NCBI GenBank assembly: GCA_024399195.1
Contig: JAKSHW010000003.1
Span: forward strand, 1 to 43,343
DNA length: 43,343 nt
From: an archaeon
GTDB taxonomy: Archaea > Thermoplasmatota > Thermoplasmata > Methanomassiliicoccales > Methanomethylophilaceae
Reading direction: 5' to 3'
A model generated the notes under the pieces. It made no database searches. It had not been told where the DNA came from and saw only the letters and a list, made by a program, of their open reading frames with translations. A program made the translations under genes and the position numbers. Each line of letters opens with the position of its first letter. The stretch's first letter is position 1. Positions 3,268-34,895 of this stretch are shown in pieces.

Positions 3268-3372
3268 TTTGAAGTCGGGGTATCACAGTGGCTATGAGGC
3301 GGACTGCAGATCCGCATATGGGGGTTCGATTCCCTCCCCCGACTCCACGTTTTGATACAGTTTTGGAATCTT
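3268..3372 (+). repeat. 105-bp direct repeat carrying tRNA-Cys, copy 1
   Basis: Bases 3268-3372 are repeated exactly at 3464-3568, 196 bases apart. The repeat covers the tRNA gene, 6 bases before it and 25 bases after it (through TTTGGAATCTT). The TATA boxes lie outside the repeat and differ, so the duplicated segment was placed behind a second promoter or the upstream region has since diverged. Confidence 0.95.
3274..3347 (+). tRNA. tRNA-Cys (GCA), copy 1
   Basis: A 74-base cloverleaf. The acceptor GTCGGGG pairs with CCCCGAC, the discriminator is T, and CCA is encoded at 3345-3347. The anticodon stem GCGGA/TCCGC encloses the loop CTGCAGA with anticodon GCA. The T arm is GGGGG-TTCGATT-CCCTC. 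The D stem has three pairs. It is identical to copy 2. Confidence 0.97.
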
Positions 3373-3436
3373 TTCGGTTTATGTCATTATTTTGTCATTC
3401 TCTATATTCATCCAAAAATATTGTTGGATACAAAGA

Positions 3437-3463: not shown

Positions 3464-3568
3464 TTTGAAGTCGGGGTATCACAGTGGCTATGAGGCGGAC
3501 TGCAGATCCGCATATGGGGGTTCGATTCCCTCCCCCGACTCCACGTTTTGATACAGTTTTGGAATCTT
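3464..3568 (+). repeat. 105-bp direct repeat carrying tRNA-Cys, copy 2
   Basis: Exact copy of 3268-3372. After this point the sequences continue alike for a few bases with one change (CTTTTCGG against CTTATCGG), which suggests a fairly recent tandem duplication or ongoing gene conversion. Confidence 0.95.
3470..3543 (+). tRNA. tRNA-Cys (GCA), copy 2
   Basis: Base-for-base identical to copy 1, including the encoded CCA at 3541-3543 and anticodon GCA. Two adjacent tRNA-Cys genes are unusual in a small archaeal genome. It is notable here because the same window holds a cysteine synthesis and Fe-S assembly cluster. Confidence 0.97.
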
Positions 3569-3626
3569 ATCGGAAAGTCCGGTTTCGTTTCGATAGTCTG
3601 ATAAACACGTTTTCCTTCGCCCATCC

Positions 3627-4847
3627 ATGAGTTATTGCCCTAGATGTGGACGCTACTTCGAAGGAGAAGGTGTCTTCTGTCGGGACTGCAACGGCGGATT
3701 CCCTGAAACGACCTCCGTCAACAACGGTAGAAAACGTGTGAAGGCCTCCACCGTCGCCCTGACCGTCATCTTCATTGCGGTCATCGGTTTCTCCGCCTCG
3801 ATCGTTTTCGACGACGAACCTCTTTCGGGGCATGCCGGTTCGTACGCACCCGAGTTCACCGACGAAGGTGTCATCGTACGCGGAGAGAATGCATTCTTCT
3901 CGTTCCTTGACGGCTACGACGATTGCATGACCATGTCGTTCCCCGAAAGCGAACGCAGCAACATGTACTCCCTCCGCATGACCTTGGACCCTGACATAGC
4001 CAAGAGATACACGATGTTCAAATGGTCGCTTACCGAGGTTATGAGTGAGACAAAGATCGCCAACCTCGATCCCAAGGCCGAACCTTTCGTCACATGGTAC
4101 GACCCTCTGTACGGGTTGTACATGTTCGATGTCGTCTGTACGGACGGGAAAGGGGCCTCTGACATATACTTCGGCGTCGTGGATGTAAGTGCATACTATG
4201 ATTTCTTCTTCGATAACGACCGTTACACGTTCCTCGTCGATTACAGTTACTCGGACTATGCGAAGGACACGGCTTCCACTGACAAGGACATCCTGTCGAG
4301 AGGGAATGTGAGATGGGACGACCTCTCCGGGTTCGTGACCACCGAGGGTGCCGTGGCCGATCTCGAGTCCGCACTTTTCGGATCGTTCTCGAAGCTATGG
4401 GGGACCAACCCCGGAAAGACGTATGCCGAGTTCCTGCTGTGTTTCGTACAGTCCTGCTACGGATACTATTCCGACCTGGGACAGTACGGTACCAGGGAAT
4501 ATTACGCGAGACCCGCAGAGACCATATTCAACAACTTGGGGGATTCCGAGGACACCGCGTTCCTGTGCACATCCCTGTTCAAGGCCGCCGGTTTCGATAC
4601 CGCGGTGGCGTTCTACGGTAACGAGACGTTCGCCGCGGTGGCGTTGCCGTACGCCGAGAAAGACTACGACGACGACCACTGTATCCTGTGCAGGAAGGTG
4701 GACGGGAAGTATTACTACGCATGTACGACCACGGCCGACGGGTACGTCCCGGTCGGAATGGTCGACTACCCCTGGGGAATAAGTTACGACGATTACGAAA
4801 ACATGGGCTCGGTGGGCCACGGGGCCTACGGGTTCTACAGGGTGTGA
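3627..4847 (+). CDS. Membrane-anchored zinc-ribbon, transglutaminase-like protein lacking catalytic residues
   Basis: A 406-residue protein. Its N-terminal zinc ribbon has Cys4, Cys7, Cys18 and Cys21, followed by one transmembrane helix at about 38-60, so the remaining ~340 residues are probably outside the cell. The C-terminal third matches the transglutaminase-like domains of the next gene and of the gene at 33570-34895 (FNNLGDSEDTAF, FKAAGFDTAVAF). The nucleophile position is Ser307 (codon TCC) where both paralogues have Cys. The His position reads ETFAAVAL instead of GHAxAx, and the acidic position reads CTTT instead of CEST/CETT. I infer a non-catalytic binding or partner subunit. It runs into the next gene with 9 bases between stop and ATG. 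Confidence 0.82.
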   Translation: MSYCPRCGRYFEGEGVFCRDCNGGFPETTSVNNGRKRVKASTVALTVIFIAVIGFSASIVFDDEPLSGHAGSYAPEFTDEGVIVRGENAFFSFLDGYDDCMTMSFPESERSNMYSLRMTLDPDIAKRYTMFKWSLTEVMSETKIANLDPKAEPFVTWYDPLYGLYMFDVVCTDGKGASDIYFGVVDVSAYYDFFFDNDRYTFLVDYSYSDYAKDTASTDKDILSRGNVRWDDLSGFVTTEGAVADLESALFGSFSKLWGTNPGKTYAEFLLCFVQSCYGYYSDLGQYGTREYYARPAETIFNNLGDSEDTAFLCTSLFKAAGFDTAVAFYGNETFAAVALPYAEKDYDDDHCILCRKVDGKYYYACTTTADGYVPVGMVDYPWGISYDDYENMGSVGHGAYGFYRV

Positions 4848-4856
4848 GTGGTCCAC

Positions 4857-6497
4857 ATGAATTACAGTCTTATAAAATACACAACGGCGGTCATCACTTT
4901 CTTCGTCGTGATAGGTGCGATCATCTATGTCGCGTTCGAGATGGACCTCGAATACGAGAGCGACGAGTTCCTACTTGGAAGCACAAGCGTTACGTTGGAG
5001 GTCGGTCAGTCCCGTTCCATCCGCGTCGTCGACACGCCCTCCGGATACTACGATTCGGATGTGGAATGGTCGTCGAACGACGATTCGGTCGTCAGGGTCG
5101 TGGACGGTGTCATCACGGCCGTATCCCCGGGGAAGGCCGTAATCCACGCGTCCGTCTACGGGATGAAACGTCTCGTGGACGTCACCGTCCTATCGGCAGG
5201 TGCGGACCGTCACCTCGTCATCTACGACCAGTTCGGGAATGACCACGACCTTGCCGTCCTCGACGGCCCAGGTTTCACCGACGGGCTTCTGTCCCTCATG
5301 TTCAATAAGAAAGGGGACATCGTCATCACCCTCGCGGGATACAGTGAGGAACTGCTTTCGATGGACCCTTCCTTCCTGGGGAACGTGGACTGCGACTTCT
5401 CGACCGTCACCATGACCGTCACCGACAGGCACCTGAACGAGATCGCACGCTCCGTGTACGATACGGAGAAAAGAACGGTCGACGAGGTCGTGGAGGAGAA
5501 CGGTGTCGTCTACAACAAGAGGTCCAGCAGCCCCATGATGGTCATAGACGGTCTTCCCTACGGCACCTACGATGTTGAGTTCGTCCTGAAGACCCGTTCG
5601 GACAGGACCTTCACCGTCTACGGATCGTTCGCCTATAAGGAGGGGGACGGGAACTACGACAGCGGCCAAACCTTCGTGAGACAGTACGCATGGAGGGCTG
5701 ACGCCGACGACGACGGAAAGACGGAGGCCTTCTCGTTCAGGATGGAGTACGATATGGGCGATTACTGGGAATGGACATACTTCAACGATACCGTCCACGT
5801 CAACGGATCGTCCGTGACCAACTACCGTTACTATTCCACGATGGCCTGGTACATGAGTCCCAGCGACTACACCGACTCCCTTCACGACGCCCTCCGCAAG
5901 GCGTACGACGACGAATACGGGAAGACGCTCCCGGACGAGGCCTTCGCAAGGTTCCTCATGACGTTCGTACAGATATCCTTCGGATACGGTACCGACGACC
6001 TCCAATACTATTCCCTCGAGGACCTGTACAGAAACGATGTGGACTATTGGGCCGTCCCCGAACAGACCATCTACTCGGGCATCGGGGACTGCGAGGACAC
6101 GTCCATCGTCATGGCCCTCCTTTTCAAGGCGGCCGGATTCGATTCGGGGGTCTTCGTCATACCCGGTACGGGAAGCATGGCCGCATCGGGACATGCCATG
6201 GCCGCCATACACATCGACGGGCTGGTATGCGACGGTACGCCCTACATACACAAAGGTGATACGTACTACCTGTGTGAGTCCACTGTCAACGCCCCGTACA
6301 AGGTCCTGCACACCTATGCCACGGGCAGGTTGGACCATACCGAGACCGTGGCGGAGAACCTGTACTTCACCTCGGAGGCCTCCGTACCAGGAAACACCCC
6401 GTCCGACAGATACGACCTCCTGTACAGTTACACCATAGGTGCATGCAACACCGCGTACAACGGTTCGGACTACTACTTCTACCCTGCCGACCGATGA
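4857..6497 (+). CDS. Membrane-anchored BIG2 and transglutaminase-like cysteine protease
   Basis: A 546-residue surface protein. A transmembrane or signal-anchor helix at about 8-27 is followed by a bacterial Ig-like group 2 domain at about 40-113 (VTLEVGQSRSIRV, VVRVVDGVITAVSPGKAVI), an unassigned middle region, and a C-terminal transglutaminase-like domain with Cys412 (GIGDCEDTSI), His446 (ASGHAMAA) and an acidic residue in YLCEST. The domain could cleave or cross-link proteins or cell-surface polymer, but the substrate is unknown. ATG 4857 is preferred to GTG 4848, which abuts the previous stop. It probably forms a pair with the preceding catalytically dead paralogue. Confidence 0.82.
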   Translation: MNYSLIKYTTAVITFFVVIGAIIYVAFEMDLEYESDEFLLGSTSVTLEVGQSRSIRVVDTPSGYYDSDVEWSSNDDSVVRVVDGVITAVSPGKAVIHASVYGMKRLVDVTVLSAGADRHLVIYDQFGNDHDLAVLDGPGFTDGLLSLMFNKKGDIVITLAGYSEELLSMDPSFLGNVDCDFSTVTMTVTDRHLNEIARSVYDTEKRTVDEVVEENGVVYNKRSSSPMMVIDGLPYGTYDVEFVLKTRSDRTFTVYGSFAYKEGDGNYDSGQTFVRQYAWRADADDDGKTEAFSFRMEYDMGDYWEWTYFNDTVHVNGSSVTNYRYYSTMAWYMSPSDYTDSLHDALRKAYDDEYGKTLPDEAFARFLMTFVQISFGYGTDDLQYYSLEDLYRNDVDYWAVPEQTIYSGIGDCEDTSIVMALLFKAAGFDSGVFVIPGTGSMAASGHAMAAIHIDGLVCDGTPYIHKGDTYYLCESTVNAPYKVLHTYATGRLDHTETVAENLYFTSEASVPGNTPSDRYDLLYSYTIGACNTAYNGSDYYFYPADR

Positions 6498-33569: not shown

Positions 33570-34895
33570 TCATCTAACGATCAGCATCTCGGCACTGTCG
33601 TAGCCTTCGGGAGACTCACCGACCCCGAAATCATCATTGGTCGTCTCGCAATAATAGTATTTCTTACCGCCGTTCTCGTAATAAGTTCCTCCGGGAACGT
33701 TTTCCAACGCCACTGAGGCCGCCGCATGTCCGGCATCCACATACTCCTCTCCTACGAACAGCAACAGGGCGGTATCGTAACCCATGCTTTTCATCAGAGC
33801 ACAGTACAGAATTGCAGAATCCTCACAATCCCCACGACCGTCGAACAGAGTCTCGTACGGGTACTTCCAATACTCTACCCCATGACAATAGTCTTCGTCC
33901 AACTCGTATGTGACACACTGTTGGACGAAATCCAGGACGAAATCTGCCCTCTGCAGATCGGTCATGTCCTTCGAAAGGCCCATGAGATAATCCGCCCAGC
34001 CCTTGACCGAATCCGATGCATAGTTAACGAATCCGAGACGGTCCTCAGTGGTCATAGGTGCACGGGGCCTGTCCGCTCCCAGATACTTGAAATACTCGTT
34101 GTAATCGGTGGTCCATGCCGCCGTATAGGTCTTCCTGTCATGTTTCCAGGAGAATTCCTTGATTACCTTCCCACCGAAATATTCCTTGAGGGACCCTAGA
34201 TATTCCGCATCAGGTCCATATCTCGTGACCCTGTATATCCCGGGACCGAGATTCATGTCAAGATAGGTCGTTCCGGTTTTCGAGAACACATAGTCACCGG
34301 TGAACCAATCGGTGACGATCCAGGTGTCGGCCTTGCTGTCGTTGTATTGAAGACGGTTTTCACCGGTATAGACGACGTTCTTGGTCTTTGCCACAAGGAC
34401 AGTATCCGTCTTCCCAGAAAGAGTGAAACTGGTTCTGTTGTTTACCAATTTTCCGTCAAGGTCGTACCATCCGGCGAAAGTGTATCCTTTCTCCACGGTA
34501 GCCTTCAAGGTGACCGTTTCCGAAGACCTGTGTGCACCGGCCCCGGTAACGGTGTCAATACCCGTCATGGTATACACGGTAACCTCGTATCCCTTCACGG
34601 TCTTCACTTTCAGTTCGGTGGGTTCCTGGACGAAGACGCTGTATTCCCTTTTATCCGAAAGGAGTTTTCCATCTTCGTCATACCATCCGGCGAATGCATA
34701 TCCGTCCTTGGTCTTGGCGTACAGATCGACATAGGTGTCCATGCCATAGAAACCGGGACCGTCCACATGGTCGATACCTTCGTCACCGGACACAGAGAGC
34801 TCTATTTCCTGTGAAAAATTATCTCCGAAGAAAAGGACTCCGGATCCTACGACCATGACCGCAATAACGGCCACGATAATTGTTCTGATATCCAT
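33570..34895 (-). CDS. Surface-anchored InlB-repeat and transglutaminase-like cysteine protease
   Basis: A 441-residue protein. An N-terminal membrane anchor at about 5-24 is followed by two InlB/Flg_new-type beta repeats, each with GYxFAGWYD (about 65-73 and 137-145) in ~70-residue units, a middle region, and a transglutaminase-like domain with Cys357 (GRGDCEDSA), His390 (DAGHAAAS) and Glu417 (YYCETTND). All three catalytic positions are intact, unlike the paralogue at 3627-4847. The repeats are typical of secreted, protein-binding surface proteins in gut microbes and Methanomassiliicoccales. The gene stands alone with its own terminator. The substrate is unknown. Confidence 0.83.
   Translation of the reverse strand: MDIRTIIVAVIAVMVVGSGVLFFGDNFSQEIELSVSGDEGIDHVDGPGFYGMDTYVDLYAKTKDGYAFAGWYDEDGKLLSDKREYSVFVQEPTELKVKTVKGYEVTVYTMTGIDTVTGAGAHRSSETVTLKATVEKGYTFAGWYDLDGKLVNNRTSFTLSGKTDTVLVAKTKNVVYTGENRLQYNDSKADTWIVTDWFTGDYVFSKTGTTYLDMNLGPGIYRVTRYGPDAEYLGSLKEYFGGKVIKEFSWKHDRKTYTAAWTTDYNEYFKYLGADRPRAPMTTEDRLGFVNYASDSVKGWADYLMGLSKDMTDLQRADFVLDFVQQCVTYELDEDYCHGVEYWKYPYETLFDGRGDCEDSAILYCALMKSMGYDTALLLFVGEEYVDAGHAAASVALENVPGGTYYENGGKKYYYCETTNDDFGVGESPEGYDSAEMLIVR

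Follow-up and report, generated by a model that had tools for sequence, protein, structure and literature searches.

A LapG-like protein without a catalytic triad, encoded beside an intact paralogue in an archaeon of the Methanomethylophilaceae

Why would a gut-type, methanogenic archaeon encode, directly before a surface enzyme with a complete catalytic triad, a paralogue in which every catalytic position has changed? The question is raised by two genes in the window (the whole 43,343-nucleotide stretch of DNA analysed here). Gene 1 (3627..4847) and gene 2 (4848..6497) lie in tandem on the forward strand, as do all window features below unless stated otherwise, and their C-terminal domains share a common origin, with 35% identity across 138 aa (E 2e-15). 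Both open reading frames are present as described in an earlier sequence-only reading of this DNA, which took them for adjacent membrane-anchored paralogues, and the homology of the domains bears this out.

The 406-residue product of gene 1 consists of a zinc ribbon, a membrane helix, a PKD/Ig-like β domain, and a LapG/transglutaminase-fold domain that appears to be catalytically dead. The zinc ribbon (CPRC...CRDC, residues 4-21, 3636..3689) follows the pattern CxxC-x10-CxxC, which is common to active relatives; 26 of 47 relatives match the Pfam model Zn_Ribbon_1 (PF13240), and gene 1 has the cysteines and scores below the threshold. The ribbon is predicted to be cytoplasmic because a basic stretch precedes the single membrane helix (residues 43-61, 3753..3809, by hydropathy; 41-55 at low confidence in the structural model). 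The β-rich middle domain belongs to a family whose profile resembles PKD domains. The C-terminal domain (about residues 228-390, 4308..4796) was delimited by homology, and an AlphaFold2 model built on an alignment of relatives (mean 81.7) places most ten-residue blocks of this domain above a pLDDT of 90. Searches with Pfam models, including DUF553 (PF04473) and Transglut_core (PF01841), gave no match to gene 1 itself, unlike some zinc-ribbon relatives that match both. Foldseek searches with the full-length models of gene 1 and gene 2 are dominated by Ig-like domains; for gene 1 they returned mostly these and nothing below 1e-3, with the putative cysteine protease 3isr at 4.5e-3.

To define the catalytic positions, we searched 102 Methanomethylophilaceae genomes and aligned the 149 homologous domains collected. 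In gene 1 the catalytic Cys is replaced by Ser307 (TCC, 4545..4547) within the motif GDSEDT, the catalytic His of its homologues by Glu333 (4623..4625), and the catalytic Glu/Asp by Thr367 (4725..4727), while the surrounding fold motifs persist, just as the sequence-only reading had proposed. All 126 Cys-type domains in the alignment keep both the His and the Glu/Asp, so the absence of all three residues from gene 1 is not a matter of chance. Judged by the loss of catalytic residues from an otherwise conserved fold, gene 1 is a putative pseudoenzyme. Ser307 was considered as a working nucleophile, a role that is unlikely given the changes of His to Glu and of the acid to Thr.

Gene 2 encodes 546 aa from an ATG at 4857 or 549 aa from a GTG at 4848. 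One N-terminal helix, a predicted membrane anchor, is followed by a Big_2 immunoglobulin-like domain (PF02368, 4980..5150, E 7.7e-8), a β domain, and an intact LapG/transglutaminase-like domain. Alignment locates the catalytic Cys at position 412 (415 from the GTG; 6090..6092), the His at 446 (449; 6192..6194), and the Glu at 474 (477; 6276..6278). The three are invariant among gene 2 relatives and occur in the expected order C-H-E; the first two, together with the Big_2 domain, had already been recognized, and Glu474 is added here. Gene 2 matches DUF553 just above the cut-off (E 2.6e-4, 20.9 bits against 20.5) and Transglut_core weakly (E 2.9e-3). Its AlphaFold2 model, likewise built on an alignment of relatives, is mixed (79.7 overall, with residues 481-536 below 50), and the full-length model retrieves Big_2/S-layer domains, a putative protease, and TG2 in Foldseek.

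The relatives with known structures point to proteolysis. A profile of gene 2 relatives searched against the PDB finds LapG as its best matches (4u65, E 5e-9; 4fgo, E 3e-8), and the gene 1 family profile retrieves the same two structures. Among curated models, that of NCBIfam for LapG gives the best partial match both to gene 2 and to a third LapG-like protein in the window (33573-34895, reverse strand), which has an intact Cys/His/Glu set, InlB-type repeats, and an N-terminal hydrophobic stretch, and which matches NF045674 at 1.6e-9. Membership in LapG proper can be dismissed, as the scores of 21.2 and 37.3 bits fall far short of the NCBIfam cut-off of 320. With LapG proteases as the nearest relatives of known structure or name, cross-linking becomes the weaker guess for the family to which these domains belong, and adhesin-type cleavage appears likelier; of the two surface activities originally suggested, processing or cross-linking, it is processing that gains. 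Gene 2 would then probably be an active calcium-dependent cysteine protease that trims adhesin-like surface proteins.

Calcium binding in this group involves residues next to the nucleophile. LapG cuts a surface adhesin and requires C135 (PMC3032545), and its calcium-dependent relative DvhG needs D316 and E318, which flank the catalytic C317 (PMC13090378). In LapG from P. fluorescens, D111 reaches a second calcium ion (PMC4359373). Within the segment D306-S307-E308-D309 of gene 1 (4542..4553), D306 and E308 correspond by alignment to D316 and E318 of DvhG, and D283 (4473..4475) aligns with D111 of LapG. Gene 1 thus retains D283, D306, E308, and D309 as far as alignment can tell. Across the 149 domains D306 and D309 are conserved without exception, and D283 is present in all 23 domains without the Cys. 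Gene 1 would therefore have lost its chemistry but kept a predicted calcium pocket.

The history of the locus separates what is old in gene 1 from what is recent. Orthologues of gene 1 occur in six other species of the genus (G014, G015, G018, G019, G021, G023). In every one of them a tRNA-Cys gene precedes gene 1 in the same orientation and serves as a synteny marker, the window having its own directly before gene 1 (3470..3543), and dihydroorotate dehydrogenase genes (pyrD/pyrK) lie near the locus in several species. The window itself has two tRNA-Cys copies where relatives have one; they lie in a 110-base direct repeat (3268-3377 and 3464-3573, 99% identical, spacing 196). A scan for promoters and terminators found nothing above chance. 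All six orthologues carry the Cys, the His, the Glu, and the zinc ribbon. Among the genus genomes compared, only the window's species thus has the Ser form, which is seen there in a single genome. The zinc ribbon, being shared with the Cys-type orthologues, is by the same comparison most probably ancestral and older than the catalytic loss.

These comparisons bear directly on the proposal, advanced in the sequence-only reading, that gene 1 and gene 2 form a regulated pair for surface cross-linking or processing, whose dead partner is conserved and gained a zinc ribbon for signalling. Adjoining dead and live paralogues with membrane anchors speak for such a pair, and so does the conserved tandem, in which gene 1 precedes gene 2 in G014, G019, G021, and G023, with gene 2 running off the contig in G018. 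A dead form common to the genus is contradicted by the six Cys/His/Glu orthologues, an outcome that the sequence-only reading had itself named as refuting, the ribbon is no acquisition of the dead copy, and the nearest characterized relatives are proteases rather than cross-linking enzymes. We regard that proposal as very unlikely. What survives of it is a tandem of one dead and one intact gene in a conserved arrangement, not a dead/live system of the whole genus. The co-occurrence of the two genes also proved loose: G011, G012, G013, and G016 have gene 2 but no gene 1, and G015 has gene 1 but no gene 2, five genomes in all, some of the genomes being incomplete. Since each gene occurs without the other, they are not obligate partners.

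A more serious competitor is that gene 1, having lost catalysis, is now drifting without function. That the Ser form is confined to one species would be expected of decay, as would the end branch of 1.36, among the longest of the zinc-ribbon relatives (median 0.42), and the absence of gene 1 from other members of the genus. Several otherwise invariant positions are altered as well: gene 1 keeps 38 of the 53 positions that are invariant in the six orthologues, and in drop-one comparisons it scores 0.66-0.72 against 0.82-0.98 for the orthologues. This lower retention points to looser constraint on gene 1, and would also fit relaxed constraint. The same genome contains another dead LapG-like gene (G000:C1, L084, about 55036-56405), with Cys changed to Ser, His changed to Asp, and a frameshift in mid-gene. 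This copy, which ends at the contig end and is 56-58% identical to the intact gene at 33573-34895, looks like a pseudogene, and a second dead paralogue in one genome would again suit decay. Gene 1 itself, on the other hand, has kept all 406 codons in an open frame, even though a stop would result from 4.4% of single-base changes; it also has a GC3 of 0.74 like that of its neighbours (0.73-0.81) and a retained fold, zinc ribbon, helix, and set of calcium-site residues. On balance we consider decay of gene 1 unlikely, if well worth keeping in mind.

Whether a dead member of this family can be functional at all is best judged in a sister genus, g9. In a tree of the family, 21 other non-Cys members, all of them zinc-ribbon proteins of g9, form one clade (98/80, starred), and the full tree holds three changes of state between Cys and non-Cys. 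All 21 retain D283, D306, and D309. Four pairs of these dead genes give dN/dS values of 0.10, 0.17, 0.38, and 0.11 (dS being near saturation in the last), and they are thus under purifying selection. At all 21 loci the dead gene is immediately preceded, on its own strand, by a gene for a regulator of about 800-1050 residues. The N-terminal half of this regulator carries MarR/ArsR-type (MsvR-like) winged helices; most copies have a single membrane helix near residue 540, beyond which lies a C-terminal part. In one example the regulator occupies L168:6534-8999 and the dead protein L168:9082-10374, and this pair recurs in 20 other loci (L166-L185, L277). When the 102 family genomes were searched for the regulator, full-length copies (E <1e-170) turned up in these 21 genomes and in no others, and the strongest hit after them was at 3e-59. 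Because of the low dN/dS and the unbroken link to the regulator, members of the LapG-like family can evidently be dead yet functional. The invariable link to a membrane-bound gene switch suggests that the dead g9 copies became sensors or binders rather than enzymes, and of all the evidence this two-gene module argues most strongly that dead LapG-like proteins can have a part in signalling.

The surroundings of the module differ from those of gene 1. The g9 locus that was annotated closely is a thiamine locus, with ThiE before the module and PTH2 and ThiM after it, and most of the other loci contain these gene clusters too. At nine out of 21 loci (L174, L176, L177, L180-L184, L277) an intact LapG-like gene of about 580-720 aa also lies within a few kb on the opposite strand, an independent dead/live neighbourhood. 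No regulator adjoins gene 1 and gene 2 in the window; the full-length g9-type regulator is absent from the window's genus, and the window's genome has distant matches only (best 2e-8). The idea that gene 1 signals inward through its zinc ribbon accordingly draws independent support from the g9 clade and its transmembrane winged-helix regulator, and none from the immediate neighbours of the window's pair. Shorter regulator homologues lie near intact LapG-like genes at L270 (G056) and L271 (G069) and contain four and three in-frame TAG codons, respectively, which may reflect either pyrrolysine readthrough or decay.

Phylogeny does not prove independent catalytic losses, as the AU test rejects neither a grouping of gene 1 with the dead g9 clade (p 0.35) nor one with its genus orthologues (p 0.42). 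Synteny favours two separate losses, because gene 1 lies at the tRNA-Cys/pyrD/gene 2 locus and the g9 genes at the thiE/regulator/PTH2/thiM locus. We therefore put forward, tentatively and in the knowledge that it may well prove wrong, that zinc-ribbon LapG-like proteins of the Methanomethylophilaceae turned into pseudoproteases that sense calcium or peptides on at least two occasions, one in the window's species and another in an ancestor shared by most of g9, and that the g9 dead protein and its regulator form a surface-to-gene signalling route.

For the window's own pair, the reading that we prefer, with a probability of roughly 45%, is that gene 1 descends from an active paralogue and is now a pseudoprotease that binds calcium or peptide, a non-catalytic partner that modulates gene 2 or acts in sensing, while gene 2 is an active protease. 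Both proteins, encoded in tandem, would be anchored in the membrane at the cell surface and carry a transglutaminase-fold domain of the LapG/BTLCP-like kind. The forerunner of gene 1 at this locus would have been an active paralogue with a zinc ribbon. In this lineage gene 1 would have dropped the nucleophile, the histidine, and the acid while retaining its fold, anchor, and ribbon as well as the acidic residues that correspond to the calcium site of LapG/DvhG. It would most likely persist as a binding subunit that holds calcium and peptide without cutting, and might either compete with or guide gene 2, or report the state of the surface to the cytoplasm via the zinc ribbon. The sequence comparisons establish the residues, the pairing, the locus, and their conservation; topology, protease chemistry, calcium binding, partnership, and signalling are inferred from them.

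To our knowledge, few archaeal one-component regulators that span the membrane have an identified partner outside the cell, and the sensing and remodelling of the surface by gut archaea are largely uncharted. The g9 dead protease with its predicted calcium site and the membrane-bound DNA-binding regulator encoded before it make a specific candidate for a sensor/regulator pair; if this is true, archaea have made a signalling route from the surface to the genes out of a dead protease. For the window's pair, the expected chemistry shifts from cross-linking to adhesin-type proteolysis, and the catalytic loss is specific to one species.

A literature search found no paper that joins transglutaminase-like proteins, pseudoenzymes, and archaea and no description of this LapG-like family; the matches for Methanomassiliicoccales and transglutaminase were, as far as their accessible text goes, not about this family. 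Two known groups suggest another role, namely that the domain is a mere peptide-binding or anchoring module of adhesin-like proteins and that gene 1 and gene 2 act independently. Inactive transglutaminase domains in bacterial polymorphic toxins have been proposed to bind peptides (Zhang et al. 2012, PMC3482391). Like gene 1, they combine a surface-anchored transglutaminase fold with lost C/H/D residues and sometimes adjoin Ig-like domains; unlike it, they are N-terminal in large RHS toxins, whereas the gene 1 domain is C-terminal, behind a predicted cytoplasmic zinc ribbon, and has no toxin attached. Group-III (transglutaminase-type) adhesin-like proteins are known in the gut methanogens Methanobrevibacter and Methanosphaera and, in the accessible text of that study, resemble gene 2 in having an N-terminal membrane helix, Ig-like domains, and a C-terminal transglutaminase-like domain (PMC11532034). 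They differ in that pseudomurein-binding repeats adjoin the domain (Pfam), and the same portion of the text describes neither a zinc ribbon nor a dead partner. Such precedents, and the finding of gene 1 and gene 2 apart, lend the module idea some weight. The full triad in all 126 Cys-type members implies that catalysis matters for most of the family, and a cytoplasmic zinc ribbon would be left unexplained, which makes a mere module improbable.

The closest known systems remain LapG and DvhG (BTLCP, Pfam Peptidase_C93), proteases of the periplasm that depend on calcium and cleave large adhesins. Their nucleophile region, D...Y[WY]..P.E......GDCED, aligns directly with the archaeal family, and the two groups appear to share the transglutaminase fold, an extracytoplasmic location, and calcium-site D and E residues on either side of the Cys. 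The archaeal proteins differ in their predicted membrane anchors and in their Big_2 or zinc-ribbon/PKD-like domains. Against the C-H-D triad of LapG and DvhG, the third residue in the archaeal family is more often Glu than Asp, and gene 1 reads S-E-T.
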